From positions 1 to 24,840 of IMG/VR virus record IMGVR_UViG_3300031658_000113: 24,840 bases of DNA, one strand, 5' to 3'. The stretch is from a virus. The stretch's first letter is position 1. The number at the start of each line of letters is the position of its first letter. Position numbers and translations under genes: made by a program. Positions 3,168 to 19,200 of this stretch are shown here, in pieces. The notes under the pieces were generated by a model. That model did no database searches, was not told the DNA's origin, and was given only the letters and a program-made list of their open reading frames with translations.

Positions 3168-3557
3168 TTAGGAGTGGCTACGGAAATACGTTGCCGAAAA
3201 GAATGCCTTTGCACCTTTATCTGCGACTGTTTTAGGGTTTAGTATAAGTTGTACATACGAATTAGTAACACTTGTTGTAATACTAACTATGTCTCGTGCT
3301 GTACTTGCCCTTCCATATACTACTACTGATGCTGTATCCGGTGAAGCTGTTAATAACACCTTAATTATTTCTTTAGCATCTTTGCCGCTTTCTACGTTAA
3401 TAGTATATTCAGCAGAGGAAAAATCGCCCATGTGCCATTCATCAATAACCAGGTCGCTTTGGACTTCTTTCCACATACCCTCATATGAAAAGTTTATTCC
3501 ACCTTTCAATAAGACTGTGTTTCGAAGTCCTTTTTTTAGAAATTTAGTTAAATCCAT
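3168..3557 (-). CDS. Small cyanophage-type virion structural protein
   Basis: A 129-aa protein with ATG at 3557, AGGA about 8 nt upstream and a late promoter motif at 3582-3589. It contains GGINFSYEGMW near residue 19 and a D-E-W-H-M-G-D-F-S-S-A-E-Y block near 39-51, followed by alternating beta segments (VVVYGRAST at 98-106, LILNPKTVADKGAKAFFSA towards the end). I recall similar segments in T4-like cyanophage structural proteins annotated only as virion proteins, so the assignment is by resemblance. No signal peptide or membrane segment is visible. It is the first gene after the enzyme cassette and appears to be transcribed from its own late promoter. Confidence 0.75.
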   Translation of the reverse strand: MDLTKFLKKGLRNTVLLKGGINFSYEGMWKEVQSDLVIDEWHMGDFSSAEYTINVESGKDAKEIIKVLLTASPDTASVVVYGRASTARDIVSITTSVTNSYVQLILNPKTVADKGAKAFFSATYFRSHS

Positions 3558-3590: not shown

Positions 3591-5402
3591 CTATTCTTTA
3601 TTGGCGACAGTTACAAGTTTGCCAAATTCTGGCAAATATAAGTATTCTATATCACTACTCTTTAGTGTCCAAATAGCATCCTCTAAAGTTTCAACAAGTG
3701 GCTCGCCGCCTAAGTTAAAGCTAGTGTTGAATATTATTGAACAACCTGTCTTTTCTTTAAACGCTTTGATTAACTTATAGTAGTTAGGATTCTGCTCTTC
3801 AGTTACTGTTTGTATTCTGCAAGTTCCGTCAACATGTATAATACTAGGTATCTTTTCTGCAATGCCTGGTTGACAGTTAACAGCATACATCATATGTGGA
3901 CTATCTTCCATGCCACGTAGATCAAACCATTCGTGTACATCTTCTGCTAGAATAGAGCCTGCAAACGGTCTAAAGTATTCGCGGTGCTTAACATCATTAA
4001 CATAGTCTTTGCCGTCTTCAAATGTAGGATCAAATAACACGCTTCTGTTACCTAATGCACGTGGACCGTTTTCACTTTTTCCTTGGAACAGTGTAACAAT
4101 ATTCTTTTCAGTCAATAACTTAACAATGTCCTTATCTGTTGCGTCGGTAATAGTTACTCCGTCTACTGTAGTCTTATCAATAATATCTTTTTCAGTATAG
4201 TTATTGTCAGGACCTAAGTACAACGATTGTGTTTGTACAACTTTTGAATCTTCTTCTAAGCCGTACCAAAACATCATTGCCGCGCCCATTGCTGTTCCTG
4301 CATCATTACTTACTGGTTCAACATATACTTCAATGCCTTCGTCTTTAAGTGCTTCTAAATAATGATAATTAGCAACACAGTTTAATCCGTAGCCGCCGCT
4401 TATTACTACTTTCTTTTTACCAGTTAGTTCAACAGCATTTCTAATCAACTTTACAACTTGATCTTGTGTTTGCGTTTGACACGCATATGCCATGTCGCGT
4501 CTACTATCTAACAACGTTAAGTCGTCTTTAGTTTCAAGATGGTTAACTTCATTTAAGAACTGATATATTCCGCTATTTACTATTGCTCCGTTTGGATAGT
4601 TAGGAACAATTACATTTCTATTTGATAATGGGTAAATTGACTCTTCGTCAAACAACTTAGGTATAGCATCATTAGGCTTACCATATGGAAATAATCCCAT
4701 AGTTTTTCCAGCTTCTATTCCGCTCCATCCACAGTATTGTGTAACTGCTTCGTACACTTTAACAATGCCAGCTCTATCACTTACTATAGCATCATGCATT
4801 TTTCCGTTTTCGCCAAACATGTCTGATGGCATGTTTGTTAGTCCACCAGGTATTGGTTCTCTAGTACCGTATACTTTAAATTTAGTATCGAACTCTGCAG
4901 GGTAATCACAGTCAATAATACTTTCAACTTCCCAACTCATTACTTGCTCATTATTAATGCTTAACGGTATAAATGTTCCAGCACCGTCTACAATTACACT
5001 TACTGCACTATCAAAGCCACTCCTATAAAATGCACATGCAGAATGTAGCTTGTGGTGCATAAATGCTAGATCAATAACTTGAGGATGATCATAAGATGTG
5101 TTATTTGACTTTTGATCAATTAACCCTAACTTACGTGCTAATCCAGTATACATATCATCACCACTATAGTCAATTTTGCCAGCAGTTTCTTTTAACGGTT
5201 GTGTATGTGCAACTACTAAGTAGTCAATTTTATCAGTATAGTCTAAAATCTTAACCATACTTGCAAATGGCCCGCCATCATACTTTTGCCTAGACAACCG
5301 TTCTTCTTCAATAGAAAATACAACTTCGCCGTCTTTAAGTAAACATACACCACTGTTGTGGCCTCTTGCTATTGCCGCGATCCAAATTGGTTTCTTGCTC
5401 AT
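3591..5402 (-). CDS. Carbamoyltransferase, NodU/TobZ (CmcH) family
   Basis: A full-length 603-aa member of the family that transfers a carbamoyl group from carbamoyl phosphate, through carbamoyl-adenylate, to a hydroxyl on a sugar or other acceptor. Visible family motifs: the N-terminal ASKHA-fold start with GHNSGVCLL (14-22) and IEEERLSRQKYD (31-42); a metal-binding-type cluster with His116, His117 and His120; GGYGLNC (336-342); ENGPRALGNRS (444-454); REYFRPFAGSIL (474-485); and FNTSFNLGGEP in the C-terminal half (558-568). No key motif seems lost, so it is probably active. Its ATG follows the SGNH gene stop directly, with AGAGG 7 nt upstream. Carbamoyltransferases of this family are known in marine T4-like phages; the acceptor is unknown. 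Candidates are a glycan made by the neighbouring GT9-like enzyme, a host lipopolysaccharide sugar, or a hydroxymethylated base in phage DNA. Confidence 0.93.
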   Translation of the reverse strand: MSKKPIWIAAIARGHNSGVCLLKDGEVVFSIEEERLSRQKYDGGPFASMVKILDYTDKIDYLVVAHTQPLKETAGKIDYSGDDMYTGLARKLGLIDQKSNNTSYDHPQVIDLAFMHHKLHSACAFYRSGFDSAVSVIVDGAGTFIPLSINNEQVMSWEVESIIDCDYPAEFDTKFKVYGTREPIPGGLTNMPSDMFGENGKMHDAIVSDRAGIVKVYEAVTQYCGWSGIEAGKTMGLFPYGKPNDAIPKLFDEESIYPLSNRNVIVPNYPNGAIVNSGIYQFLNEVNHLETKDDLTLLDSRRDMAYACQTQTQDQVVKLIRNAVELTGKKKVVISGGYGLNCVANYHYLEALKDEGIEVYVEPVSNDAGTAMGAAMMFWYGLEEDSKVVQTQSLYLGPDNNYTEKDIIDKTTVDGVTITDATDKDIVKLLTEKNIVTLFQGKSENGPRALGNRSVLFDPTFEDGKDYVNDVKHREYFRPFAGSILAEDVHEWFDLRGMEDSPHMMYAVNCQPGIAEKIPSIIHVDGTCRIQTVTEEQNPNYYKLIKAFKEKTGCSIIFNTSFNLGGEPLVETLEDAIWTLKSSDIEYLYLPEFGKLVTVANKE

Positions 5403-6266
5403 TTAAAATCCTCTGTATCTGTTACCTTGCCACTCGGACAAGTTATTATTTATTGTTTCACAAAATAAATCAAAATCTCTGTGAGTCTCTTTATACATTG
5501 TGTTAACTTTATCTATCCAAATTTCTGTTTGTTTGCTTAAATCCTGGCTATTTTTAAGTTTTGGTTTAACGTGTGTTTGTAAATATTCTGCATGTTGGTC
5601 TATGCTGGGATGTCTGTCAATAACAAATACACCTTTATCATTAAATTTAAAATGAGGCAACAAACTATTCCATGCAGTACTTCCTACTGGAGCAATCCAT
5701 TTATCATCTGCTTCGATTAGATCTTTGTAGATAGCTAGTTCCGGCATGTCTTTCCAAATATTATTAGTAGTACCTAATTCGCCCGTATTACTATCTGGAT
5801 AATCTGAGTTCATTTTTGCAATGTCACCCATACTAGTCATAAACCAATTACAACCTGTACTTTTTAAAAATCCTTGAGCTAACGAAATGTTATTCAGCAT
5901 ATGCATTGTATAGCTTGATTCATCCCAAAATGTTTTAATCCAGTTATCAGTATACATCTTTGCATTAATGTAATTAAATAAACTTCCGCAAGTTTTCCAA
6001 CCCACTCCGTGATTACATCCTTCTCGACGATTGTCAGTAGTATGATAATCGTTTCGCAAATGACTAGTCCATTGTATAATTACAGTATCGGTTGACGTGA
6101 GGTTTTCTCTTGCATGTAGTTCAACTAGGCGTTCGCATATTGCTCTATTACCTAGTCCTGGATATCCCCAATTTTCATAAGTATCATATTCGGTTCCTAG
6201 CATGTCTGCCCAACTGGGCCACGCATAGTTACTAAAACTGCATCCTAATACAAATAGTCGAGACAT
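5403..6266 (-). CDS. SGNH/GDSL-type hydrolase or acyltransferase-like protein
   Basis: A 287-aa protein with the landmarks of a small SGNH hydrolase. Block I is G8-C9-S10-F11-S12, with Ser10 as presumed nucleophile. A Gly/Asn oxyanion-type segment, GYPGLGN, lies at 34-40. A beta-strand with TVIIQWTSHLRND at 61-73 sits where the family has its third block. Near the C-terminus VIDRHPSIDQHAEYL (215-229) supplies the Asp-x-His pair (D217, H219) in the usual D-x-H-P context. Such enzymes remove or transfer acyl groups, often acetyl, on sugars or lipids. The start codon overlaps the preceding stop by one base (TAATG), so translation is probably coupled; the next gene starts right after its stop. 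Its position between a GT9-like enzyme and a carbamoyltransferase suggests glycan modification. The N-terminal and C-terminal blocks are convincing; the substrate is unknown and no secretion signal is seen. Confidence 0.8.
   Translation of the reverse strand: MSRLFVLGCSFSNYAWPSWADMLGTEYDTYENWGYPGLGNRAICERLVELHARENLTSTDTVIIQWTSHLRNDYHTTDNRREGCNHGVGWKTCGSLFNYINAKMYTDNWIKTFWDESSYTMHMLNNISLAQGFLKSTGCNWFMTSMGDIAKMNSDYPDSNTGELGTTNNIWKDMPELAIYKDLIEADDKWIAPVGSTAWNSLLPHFKFNDKGVFVIDRHPSIDQHAEYLQTHVKPKLKNSQDLSKQTEIWIDKVNTMYKETHRDFDLFCETINNNLSEWQGNRYRGF
5447..5454 (-). promoter_or_regulatory. Possible late promoter inside the SGNH gene, upstream of the carbamoyltransferase
   Basis: AATAAATA on the minus strand, 45 nt upstream of the carbamoyltransferase ATG and within the final codons of the SGNH gene (Thr-Ile-Asn-Asn). 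It could add late transcription of the carbamoyltransferase, or be an incidental Ile-Asn-Asn codon string. Confidence 0.35.
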
Positions 6267-7306
6267 TACTCAGCTATTGCTTCGTCAAATACTGCGTCAA
6301 CAGTATCATCATCGTCTATAACTTTAGGTTGTTGTCCTGTACCTACTTCTGGCTCTTCGTCATCATTACCATGTATTAGTGTACCTTTAACGACTCCTAC
6401 TACATACTCAATAATTTTATCATCCATTGCCATTAAACTTTCGTTATGTCTATTAGTTGATTCTTCTTGTGTAATACGAATTGGATCGTAAATTCTATTA
6501 GATTGACCTAAGTCTAAAACATTAAAGTTTTCTGTGTCTGGATATGATACATTTATTGGAAAAGTAGATCCATGTACCGCAGTAGTAGTTGTACCTACAC
6601 AATAAGCTAAGTGTTGTCCTACACTATCGCATCCTAAGAAGTGATCAGCATATTTAATCATTGATGCCCACTGCCTAATATTTAATCCTTCCGGCATAGC
6701 TATTTCACTTTTTAAGCCTTCGCCTTTGAGATCAATTTTAAGTTCGCTCATCATAACAATAGCATAATCTTTTTCTAAATCTTTTAGCATCATCTTTAGA
6801 TCTTTAAATTCAAAACTTCTGCCAGTACTATCTATCGGAGTGTCGTCATTAATTTCAATGCCGCGACCAAACGGTTGTATTATTAGTAGTTTGTCTTTTT
6901 TAATTTTTGTTTTAACTTCGTTGATTAACTTACGTCCTACAAGTAGTTCTTCTTTACTAAGTTTCATTGTAGGTTTAGGTAAGTCTCTAATACCTTTGCC
7001 ATTTAATTCAATGTCAAACGCTTGTGCTAGACTACATTTCTGATTGTAATATTCCCAAACTCTATAAGGCTCTGGATACAGCACATCTCTGTTTTTTAGA
7101 ACATCTTTAAATAAGTTTTTATGCCAAGGGTCATATGCCCTAGCGTCTAGTGTTGGGTGTCCTTTGAACATGTCTGTGCCACCTTCGCACACAATTACAA
7201 ATTCAGTATCTCCGGACTCTTGTTCGTATAATTCTAATGCGGGTATGGAACACAGCATTCTGCCTGCGCCACCATTTAAAAAAAATGCTTTTGATCTTGT
7301 TGTCAT
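6266..7306 (-). CDS. GT9-like (heptosyltransferase-fold) glycosyltransferase
   Basis: A 346-aa protein built like a GT-B glycosyltransferase of the ADP-heptose:LPS heptosyltransferase group (family 9). The first Rossmann-like domain opens with NGGAGRMLCSIPALELY (11-27), equivalent to the family's G-x-G-D-x-L-x-x-x-P-A motif but with Arg-Met in place of the usual Gly-Asp. The second domain starts at KLLIIQPFGRGIE (139-151), and the donor-site motif appears as FLGCDSVGQHLAYCVGTTT (223-241) followed by AVHGST, where the family usually has D-[ST]-G-x-x-H-[LI]-A. The last 30 residues are very acidic (DDEEPE, DDDDTVDAVFDE), an unusual tail. It is the first gene below the intrinsic terminator, with GGAG and GAGAG upstream of the ATG, and overlaps the SGNH start by one base. 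The sugar donor and acceptor are unknown. Confidence 0.72.
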   Translation of the reverse strand: MTTRSKAFFLNGGAGRMLCSIPALELYEQESGDTEFVIVCEGGTDMFKGHPTLDARAYDPWHKNLFKDVLKNRDVLYPEPYRVWEYYNQKCSLAQAFDIELNGKGIRDLPKPTMKLSKEELLVGRKLINEVKTKIKKDKLLIIQPFGRGIEINDDTPIDSTGRSFEFKDLKMMLKDLEKDYAIVMMSELKIDLKGEGLKSEIAMPEGLNIRQWASMIKYADHFLGCDSVGQHLAYCVGTTTTAVHGSTFPINVSYPDTENFNVLDLGQSNRIYDPIRITQEESTNRHNESLMAMDDKIIEYVVGVVKGTLIHGNDDEEPEVGTGQQPKVIDDDDTVDAVFDEAIAE

Positions 7307-7402: not shown

Positions 7403-8101
7403 TTAACCTGGTAAATCTGGTAGTTCAAAGTAAGGAAGTGGTTCTGCTGGAAATGGTATTTTCCAGTGATTAATTCCGTCATATCTTACATCTGCAACTA
7501 CTAGTTTAAGCCATGCTGAATGATTAACTAATGTTGTTCTGTCTGCATCTGTCATCGCTTGGTTGCCTGTATCAAGTAAGGCTGCGTCAATAGTTTCGTG
7601 TTGTGCTTTACAACCATCAAGTACTGACTGTCTAGTGTTAACATGCGTTCTCAATACAGGACCTGACCAGCCATCTCCGCCTATATCATTAAGAAGTGAT
7701 TCTGCCCAATGTAAATGTGCAAGCATGCCAGTTGTGCCTTCGTACTGGTGTGTCCAAGTCCACTCATTGCCGGCTGCGTCTTCAAGATTTTCTTCGTAAT
7801 CTGCAATATCTGCATGAGTATATTCATGTGTAACATATGCACAATACATTGCATGAGTAGCACTAGTTGTTGAATCAACTACAACGTAATTATATTCGTC
7901 TCTGTCAAAGAAGCTTGGATCAATGCTACGGTCGTCAGCTTTATCTGCTCGTCCGCCTTCTCTAACTTGAAAATCGTCTTTATCAATTTGCATCATTACA
8001 TACCTAGGTCCGGTATATTCACAATCAAATGATTCGTTACTCGTAGTTGCCTGCGAATATGGTTCGTCCGGTAAATTTACCGTAAATGTTTGGTTAGCCA
8101 T
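7403..8101 (-). CDS. Unrecognised 232-aa phage protein with an HExxH string
   Basis: I do not recognise this family. The ATG at 8101 has GGAG about 11 nt upstream and a late-promoter-like TATAAGTA at 8124-8131; the terminator lies 26 bp past the stop. The N-terminal 75 residues look beta-rich and acidic, the middle is rich in His, Trp and Tyr, and residues 125-205 look helical. HEYTH at 92-96 matches the HExxH zinc-protease signature, with several Glu residues nearby (E103, E104, E107), but without the usual metzincin extension; coincidence is quite possible. The protein ends in a proline-rich stretch (FPAEPLPYFELPDLPG). It is the last gene of the large structural transcript, so an accessory fibre protein, chaperone or adhesin partner of the cysteine-rich pair is conceivable, but no function can be assigned. 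Confidence 0.8.
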   Translation of the reverse strand: MANQTFTVNLPDEPYSQATTSNESFDCEYTGPRYVMMQIDKDDFQVREGGRADKADDRSIDPSFFDRDEYNYVVVDSTTSATHAMYCAYVTHEYTHADIADYEENLEDAAGNEWTWTHQYEGTTGMLAHLHWAESLLNDIGGDGWSGPVLRTHVNTRQSVLDGCKAQHETIDAALLDTGNQAMTDADRTTLVNHSAWLKLVVADVRYDGINHWKIPFPAEPLPYFELPDLPG

Positions 8102-8135: not shown

Positions 8136-9098
8136 TTATGTTGCAACGAATCTAATCTTGATTATTGCATCACCGCCTGCCCATCCGTTATCTCTAACGC
8201 CTGAACAAGGCTTTGCCGCTGGTCCACCATGACCATGTGGAACGTACATTGTACATCCCTGTGTGTCGTAACAACCGCAGATTCTGACACCGTCCCAACA
8301 TTCTGTCCACGAGTGTCCAGAATTTGGCATTCTGCTCATTGAGTTTAATGCTTGAATGTATCCCGAGAAGCCCATTCCGGACCAGTCTGAATATCCACTG
8401 TCGCCTTCATTTTGATATGTTACAACGCCGCCATCGGCAGAATGATAGCCTGGAGGAATAGCAACATGATCCGTTGTACTACAGTTACAGTTTGGATAGC
8501 AATGCCAGTATGTGCTACAACTAATATTACCCATTTTATTTTGTCCAGAATCTCCGCCGTATGCACATGCACACCAAGCACCTGGACAGTGATTGCATAT
8601 AAGTCCACAATATCCACTGTATTGTGTTCCACAATATCCGTTTGCCATCAAACAACATCTTCGTGCTGGACTTGATGTACAAAAACTAACTCCTGATCGT
8701 CCGCCTTCAGCACATATACATCCGTTTGCGCCAGCGGATTGCCAACATACCATTCCCGCTTCTGAACAACCTCTGTTACATAAACTACCGTTTCTACAGC
8801 TCTTTCCTGCATGCATACATATCCAACAACCTGTATCCACTGCCATGTTTGATCGCTTAACATATGCTCCTGAGTTACCAGGTAGTGTTGCTGAACAACA
8901 GCACATTCTCGATCCACTTCCGCCTGCTCCGATAACTTCAAGCTCAACAGTTCCTGCGCTCGGTGCTATCCAACAGTGACATCCACTAAAGGTAGTATAA
9001 TCTGCAACTGTAGAAAATGCCCACATCTTGCCTTTTTCCAGATTGTCTTCCGTCGGTGCGGGCGATCTCACTGCTAATATTGATTGTAATGTTGCCAT
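8136..9098 (-). CDS. Glycine-rich, cysteine-rich virion protein, copy 2
   Basis: A 320-aa protein with about 31 cysteines (near 10%), many in CC, CCC and C-x-C groups. It is a clear paralog of the protein at 9111-10067: both share an N-terminal helix ending in E-D-N-L-E-x-G, the GAGGSG strand followed by CCC and LPGNSG, C-x-R-G-C-S-E, NGC-x-C, GGRSGVSFC or its equivalent, CGLxCNxC, YGGD, GNISC, CYPxC, and a final C-x-GVRD. Most cysteine positions align. The Gly-rich strand pattern resembles glycine-rich domains at the ends of phage tail fibres and adhesins. The ATG at 9098 has AGGAG about 10 nt upstream, 12 bp after the previous stop, with no promoter between, so the pair is co-transcribed. 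A receptor-binding tip or metal-/disulfide-stabilised appendage is an inference. No signal peptide is visible. Confidence 0.82.
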   Translation of the reverse strand: MATLQSILAVRSPAPTEDNLEKGKMWAFSTVADYTTFSGCHCWIAPSAGTVELEVIGAGGSGSRMCCCSATLPGNSGAYVKRSNMAVDTGCWICMHAGKSCRNGSLCNRGCSEAGMVCWQSAGANGCICAEGGRSGVSFCTSSPARRCCLMANGYCGTQYSGYCGLICNHCPGAWCACAYGGDSGQNKMGNISCSTYWHCYPNCNCSTTDHVAIPPGYHSADGGVVTYQNEGDSGYSDWSGMGFSGYIQALNSMSRMPNSGHSWTECWDGVRICGCYDTQGCTMYVPHGHGGPAAKPCSGVRDNGWAGGDAIIKIRFVAT

Positions 9099-9110: not shown

Positions 9111-10067
9111 CTAACTCTCTATAAATTTAATTCTAACTGCACCCATACCGCCTCGATGGCCGTGGTCTCTAACACCTGGACAAGGAAATGGTCCGTGACC
9201 TCCTACACCGTACGGTACGTTACTTTGACAACCGTTTGCGTTATAGCAACCGCAACTTACATCACCTCTGAAACATGCTTTCCAAGGAATACCAGTACCT
9301 GGTGTTCTGCCGGCGCCTGCAAGCATAGCAATTGTTTGTCCCATGCCTTGTCCGCTCCACTGTGAGTAAGACGAGCTCTCCCCGCTTCCAAAGCCAACTA
9401 TGCCGCCGCATTCTGCAATCATTCCTGGAGGAAATGCAACATATGATCTCTGCTGACATATGCAAGATGGGTAACAACCATGGAACCCAACACAGCTTAT
9501 GTTGCCACATCTATTTACATCGCCGCCGTATGCAATTGCATCCCAATGGCCACTACATTGATTACAAACCAATCCACAGTTTGGACCATTGTTTGTTGTA
9601 CAAAATCCGCCAGCTAAGAAACAACAATACATGGCAGGCGATGTTGAGCAATAACTAACGCCGCCTTTGCCACCTCTTGCACACATACAACCATTTGTTG
9701 ATGTACTTTGCCAGCACACTGTTGTAGGTTCTGAACATCCTCTAAAACATAATGCATCAGAGTTGCCACAAGCAAAGCCAGTACAAGCATACAAATATTG
9801 ACTTGATGTCATTGTAATTGATTTCTTTGAATAAGATCCTGAGTTACCTGGCAATCCGCCACCACAACAGCACATCTTTGCGCCACTGCCGCCTGCACCC
9901 CATATTTCTATGTCTGCTACGCCAGTTGCTGTAGGACACCAGCACCAACACTTACATGCTTTGGTGTAAGTATTGCCTTCTGCAAAACTATAAATTCTGC
10001 CAGATTCGAGGTTGTCTTCCCCGCTGGACGGAAGTTTCGCTTTTAATAATGTTTCTAATGATGCCAT
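9111..10067 (-). CDS. Glycine-rich, cysteine-rich virion protein, copy 1
   Basis: A 318-aa paralog of the next gene, with about 32 cysteines. It begins with a short helix (MASLETLLKAKLP) and E-D-N-L-E-S-G-R, then a four-cysteine cluster CKCWCWC near 38-44, GAGGSG and CCC near 57-68, and continues with the same order of Gly/Cys blocks as copy 2. The C-terminal part has CGCYNANGC, PYGVGGHGP and CPGVRD before a closing beta strand. It starts at ATG 10067 with AAAGGAAATTAGG in front, 30 bp after the stop of the 110-aa gene. Sequence divergence between the copies is large outside the cysteine and glycine positions, pointing to an old duplication under structural constraint. Alternatives to an adhesin are a metal-binding virion component or an assembly factor. 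Confidence 0.82.
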   Translation of the reverse strand: MASLETLLKAKLPSSGEDNLESGRIYSFAEGNTYTKACKCWCWCPTATGVADIEIWGAGGSGAKMCCCGGGLPGNSGSYSKKSITMTSSQYLYACTGFACGNSDALCFRGCSEPTTVCWQSTSTNGCMCARGGKGGVSYCSTSPAMYCCFLAGGFCTTNNGPNCGLVCNQCSGHWDAIAYGGDVNRCGNISCVGFHGCYPSCICQQRSYVAFPPGMIAECGGIVGFGSGESSSYSQWSGQGMGQTIAMLAGAGRTPGTGIPWKACFRGDVSCGCYNANGCQSNVPYGVGGHGPFPCPGVRDHGHRGGMGAVRIKFIES

Positions 10068-10786: not shown

Positions 10787-13700
10787 TTAGTTCAGTAAGA
10801 ACATTTGTAGTGCTACTGGTGCACCTGCTATTCCACCTTTGAAGTTCACTACATTATTTATGTTAATTGTGCCTCCACTGGTAGTAGATATCTTGTTGCC
10901 TGTAATTTCAATTACACCTGCTGTTACACTATTTACGTTTAGTGTAGCAACACCACCACCAATTTGTGATGTAATGTAAGTTTTAATTGCTTTTTGTGTT
11001 GGTACAATGCTATCACTGTCAGCACTAAATGTACCGTCTGTACTAAACTCACTAATAACAGCGCCGTTGCCGCCTAAAGCAACACTACCTAGTTGTAATT
11101 CGTTAAGTCCAGATATATTAAACGCTTCAACGTTTAATGTAGCAATACCAGTTGCCTGTTCTACGTTAAATAAACCACCAACTCTAAAGTTACCATCTTG
11201 GTCTGTACTTGTATAAAATACTCGTCCGCCGCCAAAGTTGTTTGTTTCAACTGCTGGATCTGGAACTGATAACGGATCGTTTGGATAGTTAGTATTAGTA
11301 AAGTTACCTGTACCAATGTCTAAGAAGTCATGACCAGTTAAACGTACCTGGCTAAATCTTCTGCGTATTGTAATTGCATCATCATGCGGTGGGCGTTCTG
11401 ATGCTAAAATTGCTGGACTTATTTGTAGTAACGCACTATATGGTCCGTTGCCTACTAAGCCTGTGACAGCAACTAACTTATACCACACACCAGACCTACT
11501 TGCTAATTCTACGTTTGATCCTTTTTGTGGATTTGTTGTTAAACCGTCAACTCTAATTTTAGTGCCAGTTTGTTTAATATCAGCGTAACCATCTCCGTCA
11601 ACTGTTCCAGTAGCAGTAATGTAACCTGTACCTCTATTAGAGAATGTAGGTTGTGTAAGTACTGCGTTGCCAACTCGAACAGTATGTGCCATTTCAATTG
11701 TATTGTTAGGATCAACTAGTGTCATAACTGGCGGACTTGAAATACTGTAGCCGCTTCCTGGATTAGTGATTCTGACTTCAATAACCTTTTCATCTGATAC
11801 TCTTGCTCTACCCCGTGCTTGCGTGCCACTAGCCGGTGCCGCAAATACTACTCTAGGTGATATTAAATATGCCGTAGTTGAGTCTAATGAACTTGCAATT
11901 GCAGTACCAATAACATGATCCCAACCAGCCGAGCCGTCTGAATCTTTAAACACAGTTGCTACCTTAGTTCCTGAATCATATGCTCCAATGAAGCCATATT
12001 GTCCAGCTCCAAGTCCGCTAGTAATGTGAATTGCCATTCCGTTATATGCACCTGTTGCATTAACGTCAGTAGCCGCTAAACTAATTTGCGTTGCATTGCC
12101 TGCTTGTGAGTTACTTGCAACTTCTTTATATCCGTCACCACCGTATGTTGCACTGTCTGAATCAATTTGTATTTCATACACGCCGCCGTTAACAATGTTA
12201 GTAGCACTAACTGCCGCTCCAAAACCGTCGCCTGCAAATGACCAACGTGTTGCCGCTCCAATTGTTTTAACATCAAATGTACAATCTGCCGCTCCGCCGC
12301 CACCTACTAAGCTATCAGCAACAGTAATAGTGTCGTTTTCTGCATGTCCAGTACCACCTTTAGTTACTGTAACAGCATAAGTGCCGTTTGGTTCAACTTG
12401 TAATGAAAATTCTTGTCCTGTGCCTGATCCCGAACTTGCTCCAACAATGTTATTATATGTGCCTTGTGTTCGAAGATTATCAAATCCACTAACTGTGTCA
12501 ACAGTTAATATAGATGATGTTTGTTGTGTAGTGTAACCTAAACCAGCATTTAAATATTCAACTTGTAATATTTCGTTTGCTCCGTCAGTAAATACTGCCG
12601 CAACTTGTGCTTCAAGTTGTTGGTTATCAACTTTACCAAGAATTGGTGTTTCTGTAATGTCAACACCTTCAGCAACTGATCCAAAATCTCCGTAAGAGTT
12701 GTTACCGTTTGTAGCACGAACTTTACCACCTGACTCTGCAAGGTAACCTATATGACAATAGTACGTAAACACAGATACAAGCTCTGCTCTACCTAATTCT
12801 CTAATCCAAAATCCAATGCCGTCACTTAAAATCTGTGTGAAGTCGTTTGCAACAATACTATCGTTACCGCCGTTGTGTATTGATCCGTCAACTTTTAATC
12901 CAACACACGCTGTACCAAAGTTTGATACGTTTTGTACGTATGGAGATTTAGTTGTGATCCAACCTCTTGTATCATCTGGTCCCCAACCCGGGTCAAGACT
13001 AACAAATGCTCCTGCACTTGGACGCTTAGTTCCGTATGCATTACCACTACCTAGTGTACCTAATAATCCACTTAATGAACAGTTTCTTAAACCTGTACCA
13101 TTACGCATGTAGAACATGTCTTCTTTATTATTATTTGCTACTGAGTTTATATAGTAACGACCCATGCTAAACACATTATAGTTAGAATTATATATTAAGT
13201 CTATTTTAACAGCATCTAAATATCTGTTGACATCTCGTGTACAAGCTGTTATACTATAACTGTAGTCTGCATATGTAGCCGCAATATAAGCATGAACTTC
13301 TGCAATCATATATGCTCTGTTTGCTTCTAATACTTCTACAGCATATGTATAACCTGTAGTTGCATTTGGAACGTTTGAACCTCTAAATGCAGGTACTGTA
13401 CTGTCACCGGATGCTCCGTTTACACCGTAATCAATATAGTCAGCTAATTCAGTAAATAGGTTTGATGCATATGCACCTGCTGCCGATGAACCCGCTGGGC
13501 GTGTTACTACTTGTGTTACACTATTACCAGTTGACTCAGTAACGTTACCGTTTGTTATAATTGTTGATGCTATTGCCGCAAGTCGTGTTATTGCCGCAAC
13601 ACTCTTTGGCACATCTTCTGATGCTGTTACTGTAGCTGCCGGACTAATTTTAGTTGAACGTAATTCGTCACCTACAATAGCTGTGTCTTCTGGAACTCTA

Positions 13701-16177
13701 ATTGGAAGGAATTCGTAATACTGTCCAGTTTTAACAAATACTGTTTTGCCAGCTCGCTGTGCTACTGGAACACTGTTAGTGTTACCAGCTGTAATTACCG
13801 CTGTTGTTAGACCAAGTAAGTGTCTAGCAGTTGGAAGTACGCCTGGGCCTGTAACTGCATTTTCAGCAGATGCAACCCACAAGTGAGCCGCTGTTTGACT
13901 TGATACTCCTACGTTAACTGTAATAGTAGTTGACGATATTGCAGTAATTGTTCTAAATGTTCCTGCTGCCGGATCAGTACTTCTAGGATAAAAGTGATTA
14001 GTTGCATGACTATCTGAAGCACATGTAAACGTTAACGAACTTTCAGCAATGCTAACAGTTCCGCCTACTTTAAACGGATGCACTCCGATAGTAAGTACTA
14101 GTACGCCCGAAACTGGAGCATAAGTTGCCGCAGTTGGTTTATACATTGCACTTTGCGAGCTTACTAGTGTAGCTGGCGTTAATTGTGTAATTGGTGTACT
14201 TACACTGTTTAATCCTTGATAGTTTAATGCTGGAGCAGTTTTCTCCATTACATGCGATACAAGTAATTTAAGATAATTAATTGCCGCTACTGTTTGGCTT
14301 TCTTGTCCTGCTACTTGGCTCGTTGAACCTACAAAATATGCTAATGCGGCTAACCTAGATCTAACGTTTCCACCGTGACTAATATCCCATGCAATTGCAT
14401 CAACTAGCTGTCCAGTGTCTCTTCGACATGTTTCTTTAGTATACGTAAAGCCACTAGTAAACGGAGCAATGTTGTTAGCAACTTGGTAGTCAATCCATTC
14501 AACTACTTCAGCTTGCATAAATGCTCTGTTTGATGCTAGTAACTCTCTAGTTCCTGCTTCAAATGAACCCTTTTCAATTTGTTCGCATGCAAATCTTACA
14601 GTCTTAAACGGTCTGTCTAATGTAATACCATAGTCCGGAGCTTCTCCGTCAACACCTTTGTTATAATCACAGTAGTAAACATGATTAACAAATCCAAAGA
14701 ATGTCCATTCTGGTGCATTTGCATCGTCATTAACTTTTAATACTTGACCAGGTTTGCCAATTGGCAATCTCGCTGGACCCGTGCCGCCATAATAAAGTAA
14801 ATCGCCTGCTGTAGTTAAGTTTCCTGATTCAGCACCACCTGACATAAAGTTCCAATATGTTCCTGGACCGTCATTAGCTGGATCATTAACACCTGTGTTT
14901 GAAGTGTGTGCTAGTATACAAATGTATGCGTTTACGCCTTGCGTTACAACATCACCTGCGTCATATAACGTAGTGTTAGTAAATGCTGATTTCCACGCCG
15001 CACCTTCGTTTAATTTTTCCCAATATGTTGTGTTTGGAGGACGTTGACCATTTGAGTTTGCCGTAGCTAGGTATGTGTAACCACCTAAACGAACTACGTC
15101 ACCTGTTCTATAATCTTGTGAACTACTATCGTCTCCGTAGTCTCCACGTAAGTTAAATCCAGTTACAAACACTGCCCAATCTGAGGCTTGTTCTGCTGGC
15201 TTTTTCTCTGTGTTATTAGTTTTAGCAACATATGTATAACCGCCATATGTTACAATATCACCTGGCTGATACTCTGAGTACGGACCCCAAGTATCTTCAA
15301 ATTCTAACCCTGCAACAAATATAGACCAATTAGATTCATCTAATCTTAAATTCTGTGCTGTTGCATTTGATGTGTGATGTGTTGTACAAATCCATGTACC
15401 GCCCGAATCCTTTACAACATCGTTAATTTTATAGCGTGTAGCATTTTCCCACTCGCCTAAGTATTCAATACCTTTATGAAAGTAATCCCACTTAGCTTGG
15501 TCCGCTTCTAATCCAAGAGTAATAGTAGCTGCCGATGTATGACCAGTTTTTGTTCTGTAAACTTGACCACCATACCTAGCCAAGTCACCTACACGATATC
15601 TAGTATTAATTGCCCAGTCTGCTTTCCAGTCTTGGCCATCTGACATTATATCCCACTTAGATTGGTCTAATTCTAGACCTGAACTAGTATTAGGAGCACT
15701 TACGTGATATACTGTACAGATATAAACTCTAGATCCATACTTAACAATGTCGTTAACTTTGTAACGATAGTTTATCGCCCAGTCAGCTTTGTAATCAAAT
15801 CCTTCTGAGAATAAATCCCAATATGCCGCAGTACTGTCATCGCCTAAATTACTTTCAAGGCCGCCAATTGTATCATCATCTGATATATGACCAGTGTTAC
15901 AAATATATAATTGAGCACCATACTTTACAACATCATTGATTTTGTAAACTGTTTGTACAGTCCATTCGCCTTTCCATGTTTGACCATCGGAAAATTGTTG
16001 CCACTTTGGTGTTGCATTATTTAGATCTAACATAAAATCTGTTTGAGCAATGTGCCCGACTACGCATATGAACGTCTTACCGCCATATCTTACTACATCG
16101 TCTTTATAGTAAGTGGTAGAAGAAGTCCATTCGTCTTTCCAAATAAACCTAATTCTACCTAATTTAAACTCTGCCAT
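10787..16177 (-). CDS. Giant tail-fibre-like protein with two inserted Cys-Arg-Asp modules
   Basis: A 1796-aa protein starting at ATG 16177, with GGAG 6 nt upstream and a late promoter motif at 16202-16209. Residues 12-447 are eight tandem repeats of about 50-58 aa with W-x3-W, Y-x3-D-x-V-x-Y-G-G and later W signatures, like carbohydrate-binding modules of the CBM5/12 type. A linker (455-495) precedes a segment starting YYCDYNKG that resembles a beta-helix beginning. Two helical modules with C-R-R-D (Cys584) and C-T-R-D (Cys979) are inserted where the 1626-aa paralog has none. Residues 1020-1185 are a beta-helix-like core (FYMRNGTGLRN, ANDFTQILSDGIG, FTYYCHIGYLA) nearly identical in pattern to the paralog. 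The C-terminal block (1600-1796) contains RLTGHDFLDIG and GRVFYTSTDQDGNFRVG. It probably binds host surface glycans as part of a fibre or appendage. Confidence 0.85.
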   Translation of the reverse strand: MAEFKLGRIRFIWKDEWTSSTTYYKDDVVRYGGKTFICVVGHIAQTDFMLDLNNATPKWQQFSDGQTWKGEWTVQTVYKINDVVKYGAQLYICNTGHISDDDTIGGLESNLGDDSTAAYWDLFSEGFDYKADWAINYRYKVNDIVKYGSRVYICTVYHVSAPNTSSGLELDQSKWDIMSDGQDWKADWAINTRYRVGDLARYGGQVYRTKTGHTSAATITLGLEADQAKWDYFHKGIEYLGEWENATRYKINDVVKDSGGTWICTTHHTSNATAQNLRLDESNWSIFVAGLEFEDTWGPYSEYQPGDIVTYGGYTYVAKTNNTEKKPAEQASDWAVFVTGFNLRGDYGDDSSSQDYRTGDVVRLGGYTYLATANSNGQRPPNTTYWEKLNEGAAWKSAFTNTTLYDAGDVVTQGVNAYICILAHTSNTGVNDPANDGPGTYWNFMSGGAESGNLTTAGDLLYYGGTGPARLPIGKPGQVLKVNDDANAPEWTFFGFVNHVYYCDYNKGVDGEAPDYGITLDRPFKTVRFACEQIEKGSFEAGTRELLASNRAFMQAEVVEWIDYQVANNIAPFTSGFTYTKETCRRDTGQLVDAIAWDISHGGNVRSRLAALAYFVGSTSQVAGQESQTVAAINYLKLLVSHVMEKTAPALNYQGLNSVSTPITQLTPATLVSSQSAMYKPTAATYAPVSGVLVLTIGVHPFKVGGTVSIAESSLTFTCASDSHATNHFYPRSTDPAAGTFRTITAISSTTITVNVGVSSQTAAHLWVASAENAVTGPGVLPTARHLLGLTTAVITAGNTNSVPVAQRAGKTVFVKTGQYYEFLPIRVPEDTAIVGDELRSTKISPAATVTASEDVPKSVAAITRLAAIASTIITNGNVTESTGNSVTQVVTRPAGSSAAGAYASNLFTELADYIDYGVNGASGDSTVPAFRGSNVPNATTGYTYAVEVLEANRAYMIAEVHAYIAATYADYSYSITACTRDVNRYLDAVKIDLIYNSNYNVFSMGRYYINSVANNNKEDMFYMRNGTGLRNCSLSGLLGTLGSGNAYGTKRPSAGAFVSLDPGWGPDDTRGWITTKSPYVQNVSNFGTACVGLKVDGSIHNGGNDSIVANDFTQILSDGIGFWIRELGRAELVSVFTYYCHIGYLAESGGKVRATNGNNSYGDFGSVAEGVDITETPILGKVDNQQLEAQVAAVFTDGANEILQVEYLNAGLGYTTQQTSSILTVDTVSGFDNLRTQGTYNNIVGASSGSGTGQEFSLQVEPNGTYAVTVTKGGTGHAENDTITVADSLVGGGGAADCTFDVKTIGAATRWSFAGDGFGAAVSATNIVNGGVYEIQIDSDSATYGGDGYKEVASNSQAGNATQISLAATDVNATGAYNGMAIHITSGLGAGQYGFIGAYDSGTKVATVFKDSDGSAGWDHVIGTAIASSLDSTTAYLISPRVVFAAPASGTQARGRARVSDEKVIEVRITNPGSGYSISSPPVMTLVDPNNTIEMAHTVRVGNAVLTQPTFSNRGTGYITATGTVDGDGYADIKQTGTKIRVDGLTTNPQKGSNVELASRSGVWYKLVAVTGLVGNGPYSALLQISPAILASERPPHDDAITIRRRFSQVRLTGHDFLDIGTGNFTNTNYPNDPLSVPDPAVETNNFGGGRVFYTSTDQDGNFRVGGLFNVEQATGIATLNVEAFNISGLNELQLGSVALGGNGAVISEFSTDGTFSADSDSIVPTQKAIKTYITSQIGGGVATLNVNSVTAGVIEITGNKISTTSGGTININNVVNFKGGIAGAPVALQMFLLN
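10855..10862 (-). promoter_or_regulatory. Possible late promoter inside the 1796-aa gene end
   Basis: CATAAATA on the minus strand, 81 nt upstream of the 106-aa gene and within codons for Asn-Ile-Asn-Asn. It fits NATAAATA but the distance is larger than at the other sites, so chance is a serious alternative. Confidence 0.25.
13142..13327 (-). repeat. Inserted Cys-Arg-Asp module, second copy in the 1796-aa protein
   Basis: Residues about 951-1012 (EANRAYMIAEVHAY, CTRD, DAVKIDLIYNSN, MGRYYINS) form a copy of the module also found at 14327-14536 and three times in the leftmost gene. The 1626-aa paralog lacks it: there the sequence passes directly from the strand after GDELRST to DMFRMHNGTGLRN. 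Confidence 0.65.
14327..14536 (-). repeat. Inserted Cys-Arg-Asp module, first copy in the 1796-aa protein
   Basis: Residues about 548-617 (ASNRAFMQAEVVEW, CRRDTGQLVDAIAWDISHGGN, LAYFVG). The signature is C-x-R-D-T-G, D-A-x3-D and G-G-N, as in the leftmost gene. It sits inside a longer segment (about 537-808) that has no counterpart in the paralog, where the same flanks are only a few residues apart. Confidence 0.65.
14837..16144 (-). repeat. Eight tandem CBM5/12-like repeats (1796-aa protein)
   Basis: Residues 12-447 divide into eight units starting near 13, 68, 129, 184, 239, 292, 343 and 394. Each has an early W or aromatic, Y-x3-D-x-V, Y-G-x-x-[YFW], often C-x3-H about ten residues on, and a closing W. 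The repeats are diverged at DNA level, so they are a protein-domain array and not recent DNA duplications. Confidence 0.75.
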
Positions 16178-16249: not shown

Positions 16250-19200
16250 TTAGAACGCTCCTCCTGCAAAGAATGCATGTGCTAGTAGGTTTCCGGCAAT
16301 ACCGTGTGGTACTCCCGGAGTTTCCGGATCGCCTTGGAAATTAACTACTACATCAAAGTTAATTGCTCCGTTAAGAGGAGTAAATATTTCATTTCCTTGA
16401 AAGCTAATATTACCTGCATTTAATCTGTTAACAGCTATGTCCGAGCCACCACTTGAAATACGTGACTTAACATATATACCAATTGCCTTTTGCGTTGGCA
16501 CAATGTTATTAGAGTTTGCTGTAAATGTGCCGTCTGTACTAAATTCTCGAACAACTGCACCAGTACCACCAAGCACAACACCACCTAGACTCAGTTCTGA
16601 TAATCCACTTAGATCAAAGAAACTTGCATTGATTGATATTGTACCCGTTGACTGCTCAACTTCAAATAATTCGCCAACTCTAAAGTTACCGTCTTGGTCT
16701 GTGCTTGTATAAAATACTCGCCCTCCGCCGTACTGTAATACTTCGTTATATTGTTGGGGTTCATTTACTGCATTAAATCCAAATGTATATAATCCAGGAT
16801 ATGCTGTGTCGCCAAAGTTACCAGAACCAATATCTAAGAAGTCGTGACCAGTAAGTCTAATTTGACTATACTTTTGTCTTAGTGTTACTGGAGAGCCATG
16901 TGATGGCGCTTCTGCTCTACCAAGTCCCGGACTAATTTGGAACTCGGCCTCATAATTAGGTGCACTGCCCGAATTTGATATTGTTTTAACAACATAGTAA
17001 GTAACTCCGTCAATTCCTGAAATAGCAATATTGTCGCCTGGTCCAGGTAATGCTGATAGTGCCGAAACTCTTAATGTATCTGTTATTTGTAAAATCTCTG
17101 CAAAACCATCTCCAGCAGTAATTGCGGCTGTAGCACTAAAGTATCCTGTTCCTCTAGATGTATAAGTTGGCCATCCAAGCACTCCGTCATTAACAGAAAC
17201 GCTAGTTGTTACATCTAATGTAGCTTGCGGATCAAATACTGTAATTACCGGTGGCGTTCCTGTTTGATAATAACTTCCCGGGTTGCTTATAACAAACGCA
17301 CCAATTCTATTACTACCTACAATTGCTATAGCTTCTGCTTTAGCTCCTGTAGCAATTCTTACGCCAGATGTTGTGTCAACAGCTACACTAATCCATATAC
17401 CGTCATTGGCTGCAACACCAGTCCAGTCTTGTGCATCTGGAGTTAATTTACTTGTCCAAGCATATCCGTCTCTACTAAGTGCTACAATATCTGATAGTGG
17501 ATTAGTTGATACAAATAGTCCTTGACTGTATGCAAGATCTCTCCATTTACCTGTTTCCATACTACCTGGATGCCAAACTATTCCGTCATAACTAACTGCT
17601 GTCGGACATGCTGTACTATCATCTTTTTCGCATATTGCAACAAATCTGTCATTACCATAAACTACTTTATTCCATTCTTGACTAGATGGTAGTGCAACTT
17701 CTGTCCAACTACTTGCGTCATCTGCACTGTACATTGCTTTGTTTCCGCCGCCTTGTATAATTACAAACTTGCCTGCACCGTACGCACAACTTGCCCAATC
17801 AGCAGTTACGCCTACATCAACCCCACTCCATGCTTGGCCGTTGTTTGTTGACTTTGCAATAGTTGTAGTTCCTGTACTATCATTTGTTCTAGCCACTGCA
17901 ATTTTAATTTGTGAGCCAGCTTCTGTACTTCCTACTACATCGGACCAATCAGTTGATGTAGGTAGTGTAGCTCCTGTCCAAGCTGTTCCGTCTGTAGAGT
18001 ACGCTACTTGATTTCCGTTTTCTGCAACAGCTATATATGTTCCGTTAGTAAAATCAACTGCTGTCCAATCTGCTGTAGAGGGTAAAGTTGCCGCGCTCCA
18101 TCCTGTACCATCTGATGATACTGCCGCAACTGTTGTTCCCTTTGCAACAGCTACAAAGCCGTTAGTACCATAAGTAATAGCCGACCAAGGTGATGCACTT
18201 GGCATAGAACTTGTAGCAGTTGCGTATGTTGGTTCTGGAATATCAACTCTAGGTTCAACTACATAATAAGTACTGCTATCAAACGCAACTACATTTGGCA
18301 TACCTGTAACGTGTTCCCAGCCATCTTCGCCGTTTGACTCTTTTTGTACTAGGGCCTGTTTTATATCTACCCTAAACGTTTTAATTTTAGCATACTGACC
18401 GGCACCTGTTCCTGCTGTAATTCTTACCCGCATACCTTCATACTTTGCTGGAGTTCCTGTGTCAGCACCCGATAGTACAATTTCAGTAGCATTGCCTGAT
18501 TGGGCTTTGTTAGCTAAGAATTGATAATTTTGTCCGCCAATGAAGTTTGAATCTTCTTCTGATGCAAATATTTCACTAATGCCGCCTTGTCTAAATTCAG
18601 TGTATGTTGGATCTGCTCCGACACCAACACTAGTAATAGCCACTGTTGCGGTTGTATAATCTCGACCTGCATTTGAATAACCAAATCCATGAACATTATT
18701 TTGATCATTATACACTGTAGCAATTTGTGCTTCAAGACTTCTATTGTTTACAGTTGCACTTGCTGGTGTTTCAGTAATGTCATATCCTTCAGCAACTGAA
18801 CCGTATAACCCGTAAGAGTTGTTACCATTCAATGCTCGAATTTTACCGCCGTCTGTAGCTAAGTAACCAATGTGACAATAATATGTAAACACAGATACAA
18901 GCTCTGATAATCCTTCACCGTTAACCCAATATCCGATGCCGTCACTTAAAATTTGTGTAAAGTCGTTAGCAACCATTGACTTATTGCCGCCATTATGCAA
19001 GTCCCCGTCAATCTTCATACCAGTACATCCTGTACCAAATGTTGATACGTTTTGTACATATGGAGATTTATTAATAATCCAAGTAGTGGTATCATCAACG
19101 CCGGTTCCTGGATCTAAAGAAACATAAGAGCCTCCGTTTGGACGTCTTGTTAAGTTTTGGTTTGTAGCACCTAAGGTGCCAACTTTTCCGTTTAACGACA

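Follow-up and report, generated by a model that had tools for sequence, protein, structure and literature searches.

The DNA considered here (the window, meaning the whole 24.8-kb stretch that was analysed, positions 1 to 24,840 of IMG/VR virus record IMGVR_UViG_3300031658_000113) is a fragment of a viral record in which the large genes all lie on the minus strand and mostly encode tail-fibre-like proteins. Among them is a cassette of three genes, encoding a glycosyltransferase that resembles family GT9 (called GT9 below), a protein of the SGNH type (SGNH) and a carbamoyltransferase (CT), with a hairpin on the upstream side and a promoter-like octamer on the downstream side:

7377-7325, minus strand: terminator-like hairpin and U-tract upstream of GT9, with a -10-like TATACT in the loop (sequence, compensatory pairs)
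7306-6266, minus strand: GT9-like glycosyltransferase, probable heptosyltransferase, 346 amino acids (aa), phrog_8954 (PHROG 1.7e-138)
6266-5403, minus strand: SGNH-type esterase or acyltransferase, 287 aa (predicted structure, active-site residues)
5402-3591, minus strand: NodU/TobZ-type O-carbamoyltransferase, 603 aa, phrog_1601 (Pfam; PHROG 1.1e-168)
3589-3582, minus strand: octamer GATAAATA, like a T4-type late promoter, between CT and the fibre-region gene that follows (sequence match only)

The original prediction for this DNA held that three coupled open reading frames, set among virion genes and joined by an overlap and an abutting junction, encode these three enzymes and that the enzymes work on a common glycan. 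This was right as to the genes, their coupling and their setting, and probably as to the glycan. All three frames are present on the minus strand as described, GT9 and SGNH overlapping by one base (GAGTAATG) and the stop codon of SGNH directly abutting the start codon of CT (TTTTAA/ATG). The identities follow from Pfam and PHROG matches for CT and from predicted folds for GT9 and SGNH, and a common glycan is the likely subject of the three enzymes, which may act on it in sequence. Dozens of divergent contigs share the gene order, which excludes a chance origin of the cassette.

The intrinsic terminator predicted upstream was found as a long hairpin with a U-tract, in which the stem is formed by GACTGGGTCT (7377-7368) and AGACCCAGTC (7341-7332) and followed by a run of T (7331-7325). 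A simple terminator scan with a loop limit of 8 misses this longer-loop hairpin. In 11 sequences of relatives the stem is kept by compensatory changes, with double changes at 7 of 13 pairs. Several relatives have a -10 sequence resembling TATACT or TATAAT inside the loop, and in one relative (L028) TTGTAC-17-TATAAT extends over both stem and loop. The element may therefore be a terminator/promoter hybrid, stopping upstream transcription and starting that of the cassette, so as to insulate the cassette and restart its expression. Other relatives carry a late-type octamer, NATAAATA, upstream of GT9, and because relatives differ in this way, the timing of expression is not readable from sequence alone. 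The late promoter predicted downstream of the cassette also has its counterpart: the octamer after CT is consistent with a T4-type late promoter.

The Pfam profile PF01075 gives the window GT9 15.1 bits, below the gathering cut-off of 22, and matches 38 of 44 GT9 relatives at E<=0.1 (best 2.7e-8). Comparison with WaaC and WaaF by hhalign yields a weak C-terminal match only, and PDB sequence searches with the GT9 and SGNH profiles produced chance matches only, so that a structure search was needed. The AlphaFold2 (AF2) model of GT9, predicted with alignment rows from IMG/VR only, has a predicted local distance difference test (pLDDT) score of 87.5. As modelled, the protein has the GT-B fold of family GT9 and is closest to ADP-heptose transferases, with VIA Z scores of 22.6 to the GT9 structure 3tov, 20.2 to WaaF, 19.6 to TibC and 18.7 to WaaC (other folds score about 11). 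The C-terminal nucleotide-sugar motif D-[ST]-x-x-x-H, whose counterparts are VDTGLSH in WaaC and NDSGLMH in WaaF, is present as D227, S228 and H232 in 151 of 151 phage GT9s. Among the cysteines of the 44 relatives, only C91 is invariant, and C40 and C226 are nearly so. Near-full-length relatives occur in only 7 contigs of GTDB genomes, all of them metagenome-assembled; these carry phage gene order, and thus no cellular home for GT9 was found in GTDB.

Pfam and PHROG searches with the SGNH protein gave no match. Its AF2 model (pLDDT 79.9) is most similar to E. coli TesA (1j00; VIA Z 13.8), followed by many GDSL/SGNH enzymes; GT9 and SGNH, which the original prediction had proposed to examine by structure prediction, thus both have models that match enzyme folds. 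In 83 sequences, the catalytic residues are S10 (81 of 81) and H219 (83 of 83), with an acid, D or E, at 217. The model and one of the SGNH alignments start without the initiator Met of the window protein, which shifts the numbering of that alignment by one residue. The oxyanion Asn of block III (GxND) is replaced by Q-W-[ST]-x-H-L-R, in a low-confidence part of the model. Because some SGNH relatives occur away from the cassette, alone among head or other genes, SGNH is best regarded as an accessory member. Several of those outside the glycan cassette lie beside a large protein of 889-898 aa (L173, L174, L178, L181-L183).

CT carries two Pfam domains, both over cut-off: PF02543 (Carbam_trans_N, Kae1-like; 2.1e-27) and PF16861 (Carbam_trans_C, YrdC-like; 1.6e-58). 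Its PHROG family is annotated as 'Nol-like carbamoyltransferase', and it matches 7xb6 (209 bits), GdmN (164), a novobiocin enzyme (161) and TobZ (146). Alignment to 7xb6 and GdmN shows the metal-ligand motifs and those of the YrdC domain, which 18 relatives keep without change: H116, H117 and H120 (HxxxH), D367, G446-R453 (GPRALG) and N559-N563 (NTSFN).

The original prediction also proposed looking for the same three-gene order in marine phages. Co-occurrence of the genes is widespread, but SGNH is optional, and the unit is better called GT9-[slot]-CT, with a slot that either lacks genes or contains one or two for SGNH proteins or 2-oxoglutarate (2OG) oxygenases. Among 93 distinct GT9 proteins in IMG/VR, the gene that follows is SGNH in 44, CT in 41, mostly a fibre-region gene in 7 and another gene in 1; the 7 fibre-region cases are second copies of GT9 lying after CT. 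A scan anchored on 72 distinct CTs, and so independent of GT9, places 41 directly after GT9, 26 after SGNH, 4 after a 2OG-oxygenase-type protein of ~180-200 aa and 1 at a contig end. GT9 lies one to three genes upstream at every CT locus that could be scored (71/71). Elsewhere the unit is inverted with respect to the fibre genes or adjoins gp15.

Some lineages have a second, diverged GT9 directly after CT (GT9-CT-GT9; L057, L068, L072, L073, L081, L084, L086), which suggests a disaccharide or two acceptors. In or beside other GT9-CT operons lie genes for 2OG oxygenases and for proteins like flavin-dependent tryptophan halogenases (L155, L170, L171, L238, L245, L254 and, in S-SSM7, L002 8368-9855), and their recurrence suggests further chemistry on the same target. 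One S-SSM7 protein, ADO98190.1 (L002 9852-10406), is annotated as DNA endonuclease V (denV) and matches the 2OG-Fe(II) oxygenase profile PF13640 (5e-9); to judge by this match, the label is probably a misannotation in the public record.

The sugar transferred by GT9 is probably heptose, because sister phages encode HldE, GmhB and HldD. In the sister contigs (87-91% protein identity), the heptose genes lie ~9-13 kb past CT, on the opposite strand and past the terminal fibre, in the series 2OG oxygenase, GmhB-like phosphatase, cupin, HldD-like epimerase, class-I aldolase, full-length HldE, NUDIX-like gene and gp15. The E-values are 2.1e-78 for HldE, 4.9e-40 for GmhB and 1.6e-70 for HldD; in sister contig L091 these are the top-ranked models for HldE (kinase plus adenylyltransferase), GmhB and HldD, yet the matches fall under the cellular equivalog cut-offs. 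The phage from which the window came presumably has the three genes as well, beyond the edge of the contig. In cyanophages P-SSM2, S-SSM7, S-CAM1 and Sf-FS3, GT9 and CT are accompanied by genes for a kinase, a nucleotidyltransferase, GmhA, a cupin and an epimerase. More broadly, 30 of the 46 long GT9 records encode an HldE adenylyltransferase domain, and of 24 GT9 records from named phages 23 match HldE as well, compared with 44 of 50,697 records overall. In Pseudomonas, WapO is held to place a carbamoyl group on heptose of the inner core (PMC8005017, PMC10569645). From gene content, the simplest product of the cassette would be O-carbamoyl-heptose, with acyl tuning by SGNH.

What might receive such a sugar? 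The genes around the cassette offer a candidate:

9111-10067, minus strand: second cysteine-rich tail protein (10.1% Cys), tandem paralogue of the next, 46% identical
8136-9098, minus strand: cysteine-rich tail protein (9.7% Cys), phrog_4205-like, linked partner and candidate acceptor
7403-8101, minus strand: conserved protein phrog_9740, 232 aa, between the cysteine-rich proteins and GT9
3168-3557, minus strand: fibre-region protein, 129 aa, the usual next gene after CT

Proteins with 8-12% cysteine, encoded in tandem, are general upstream of GT9. At least one of them, and mostly two or three, lies within 6 kb at 118 of 138 GT9 loci; at most of the remaining 20 the sequence ends early or the flank is not covered. 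Anchored the other way, on cysteine-rich loci in IMG/VR with >3 kb of downstream sequence, GT9 and CT are present at 61 of 63. Of 16 complete cyanophage genomes, five have both phrog_4205 and GT9 (5/5: S-SSM7, S-CAM1, P-SSM2, Sf-FS3 and S-CAM3) and the other 11 have neither (0/11), giving a Fisher exact p of 1/4368, to be read with the caution that the genomes share ancestry. Since P-TIM68, S-T4 and S-SM2 have heptose genes and lack both GT9 and cysteine-rich proteins, it is GT9 and not the sugar pathway that the cysteine-rich tail proteins track. These proteins were found by phrog_4205 and by Cys content, in place of a tblastn search of named phages with the protein from the window, which gave no match, probably because the protein is too divergent and compositionally filtered. 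The family, present in all GT9-bearing cyanophages tested, has runs of CCC and conserved W-x-x-P and GAGGxG motifs. From their position in the fibre cluster, the cysteine-rich proteins are probably located in the virion. Farther upstream in the window are paralogous fibre-like proteins at 10787-16177 (1796 aa), with seven CBM_5_12 carbohydrate-binding repeats, and at 16250-21130 (1626 aa), which by eye starts with similar repeats.

Marine Synechococcus has lipopolysaccharide (LPS) without heptose or 3-deoxy-D-manno-octulosonic acid (PMC4515613), yet those of its phages that bear GT9 carry heptose genes, so an ordinary LPS-core acceptor fits poorly. Enzymes with the GT9 fold, TibC and AAH, can heptosylate adhesins (PMC4358343), and mycobacteriophages are known to have glycosylated virions (Freeman et al. 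2023, as cited in PMC10955285). The co-occurrence, the heptose-free LPS of Synechococcus and the precedent of TibC together favour the cysteine-rich tail proteins over host LPS as acceptor. The preference is a moderate one, because linkage to an adhesin is expected under either reading.

According to the model that we favour, and to which we give about an even chance, the phage modifies its own cysteine-rich tail proteins with carbamoyl-heptose, and the cassette would supply the transfer and finishing steps of a heptose-glycosylation module encoded by the phage. HldE, GmhB, HldD and other enzymes made by the phage would produce ADP-heptose, and the GT9-like enzyme would move the heptose onto the acceptor, most likely the cysteine-rich tail proteins encoded directly upstream. 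CT, using carbamoyl phosphate and ATP, would then carbamoylate a hydroxyl of the heptose, giving a carbamoyl-heptose like that in the LPS core of Pseudomonas. In lineages that bear SGNH, that enzyme may add or remove an acyl group, tuning the cap. Comparable to the heptosylation of adhesins by TibC and AAH, the modification would serve to protect the tail adhesin or to tune it. A more specific form of the model, in which an Arg-bearing GT9 heptosylates cysteine thiols (or residues hydroxylated by a 2OG oxygenase) of the cysteine-rich adhesin, with CT and SGNH capping the sugar, would define a viral class of S- or O-linked carbamoyl-heptose glycoproteins; this strikes us as improbable.

Several observations weigh against modification of the tail proteins. 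In 150 of 150 scored phage GT9s, Arg (R16) replaces the catalytic Asp of heptosyltransferases, the N-terminal loop reading GRMLCSIPAL in the window and GDVLHTLPAL in E. coli WaaC (D13); by alignment, then, the phage GT9s appear to be a family that lacks the usual catalytic Asp. The window contig lacks heptose genes, although it ends before their expected place, and 16 sister records gave no match to a GmhA-like gene (PF13580), a kind of gene that is annotated in cyanophages with GT9. HldE is missing from 16 of the 46 GT9 records, some of them long (139-185 kb), and some phages may therefore use a host donor or another sugar. Phrog_4205 is missing from a few GT9 records, among them fragments of 50 and 120 kb, and two cysteine-rich records, which look like one phage, are without GT9 over 66 and 85 kb. 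The fibre module as a whole may be inherited as a block. Moreover, the case is made from genes and comparisons, and linkage to a receptor-binding protein would also be predicted by masking of a host receptor. This last point leads to the main alternative, doubtful in our view but a serious contender, that the module decorates a surface glycan of the host during infection: GT9 would add heptose to a lipid-linked or LPS glycan and CT and SGNH would cap it, masking the receptor against co-infecting phages or keeping progeny off debris. Such a role has been proposed for the LPS genes of P-SSM2 (PMC2984593) and accords with the WaaF/WaaC-like fold of GT9; the linked tail protein could then mark the adhesin whose receptor is altered, and in the clade of the window, the sigma-70-like -10 in the hairpin loop would permit expression before the late genes. 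However, the LPS of marine Synechococcus offers no ordinary acceptor. In almost every lineage seen, the tail-fibre cluster contains or adjoins the cassette, some copies of which have late-type octamers upstream, and the co-occurrence with cysteine-rich proteins is strict even among phages that have heptose genes.

Perhaps, instead, GT9, CT and SGNH have no common function and simply travel with the tail-fibre module as a passive block, their sugars and acceptors varying from lineage to lineage. The variable slot between GT9 and CT (empty, SGNH or 2OG oxygenase) and the differing accessory genes (halogenase, heptose genes, second GT9) would fit this, but the motifs of GT9 and CT are strictly conserved across wide divergence, and the pair stays intact when the block is inverted or moved beside gp15; we think it unlikely. 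Far less probable still is that the cassette hypermodifies DNA, GT9 being a DNA glycosyltransferase and CT carbamoylating 5-hydroxymethylcytosine (5hmC), which the original prediction named as the main alternative target. A phage carbamoyltransferase acting on 5hmC has been demonstrated (eLife 2021, PMC8670742), and a related CT in S-RIM44 adjoins a thymidylate synthase, though one of the ThyX type. In a pairwise comparison (not a tree), however, the window CT is 24% identical to the 5hmC enzyme over ~290 aa (55 bits, against 146-209 bits to TobZ, GdmN and 7xb6), and it keeps the motif ALGNRS where the 5hmC enzyme has ALCNTT. TobZ positions W408, G421 and R423 separate CTs of modified from those of unmodified DNA (PMC8670742); counted along the ALGNRS motif, the window CT appears to keep the equivalents of G421 and R423 and to have Leu for W408. 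The neighbours of the 5hmC enzyme are thymidylate synthase and deaminases, whereas glycosyltransferase neighbours are reported for CTs of unmodified DNA (PMC8670742). Beside the cassette there is no thymidylate synthase or dCMP hydroxymethylase, PF00303 has no match in 16 sister records (which are fragments), and the best structural matches of the GT9 model are heptosyltransferases. On the similarity of CT, its neighbours and the PF00303 search, DNA hypermodification was rejected as the main reading, and the 5hmC alternative is left unsupported.

Among known systems, the closest to the window are the 'LPS gene' clusters of cyanophages (T4-GC 302-308 of P-SSM2 and S-SSM7; PMC3037559), in which homologous genes for a GT9-like protein (T4-GC 302, left as hypothetical) and CT (T4-GC 303) are adjacent, beside tail-fibre genes, and heptose genes then follow. 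In the window, by contrast, SGNH separates GT9 from CT, and the immediate operon is free of heptose genes, which in the sister phages form a separate, divergent operon ~10 kb off, with full-length HldE and GmhB. The gene psbA is present in P-SSM2 and S-SSM7 and in none of 15 IMG/VR GT9 records, hence the phage of the window may not infect cyanobacteria. The link between GT9-CT and cysteine-rich tail proteins does not appear in those published accounts of the cyanophage clusters that were consulted. The inner core of Pseudomonas LPS (WaaC/WaaF with WapO, PA5005; PMC8005017) likewise combines heptosyltransferases with a carbamoyltransferase acting on heptose, but its acceptor is cellular LPS, whereas in the phage GT9 Arg takes the place of the catalytic Asp, and no lipid A pathway lies nearby. 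TibC and AAH, of the bacterial autotransporter heptosyltransferase (BAHT) family, share the GT9 fold and use ADP-heptose as donor and adhesin proteins as acceptors (PMC4358343). The phage GT9 lacks their N-terminal beta-barrel (residue 1 of the model aligns with TibC 91), the four-cysteine iron finger, which in TibC needs Cys 339, 342, 358 and 370, and an equivalent of Asp110, the candidate base of TibC that corresponds to WaaC D13 (PMC4358343). The fold fits, but with iron finger, barrel and catalytic Asp all missing, membership of BAHT was rejected. The 5hmC carbamoyltransferase, also found in phages, belongs to the same superfamily as the window CT and differs from it in sequence, neighbours and motif residues.

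The cassette is thus a genuine and widespread glycan module of marine phages, carried by many that are T4-like. It belongs with a known kind of gene set, the cyanophage 'LPS genes', of which it is an SGNH-bearing variant. Whether those genes have a function or are stuffer DNA was left undecided in 2010 (Sullivan et al. 2010, PMC3037559), and their wide conservation and strict linkage to cysteine-rich proteins make the old puzzle directly testable. If the model is true, widespread marine phages would build glycoprotein adhesins of their own, and those of cyanophages would bear a sugar that is absent from the LPS of the host. This would bear on adsorption, host range and the stability of phages in the ocean, and it would give phage carbamoyltransferases a second role, one that does not involve DNA.

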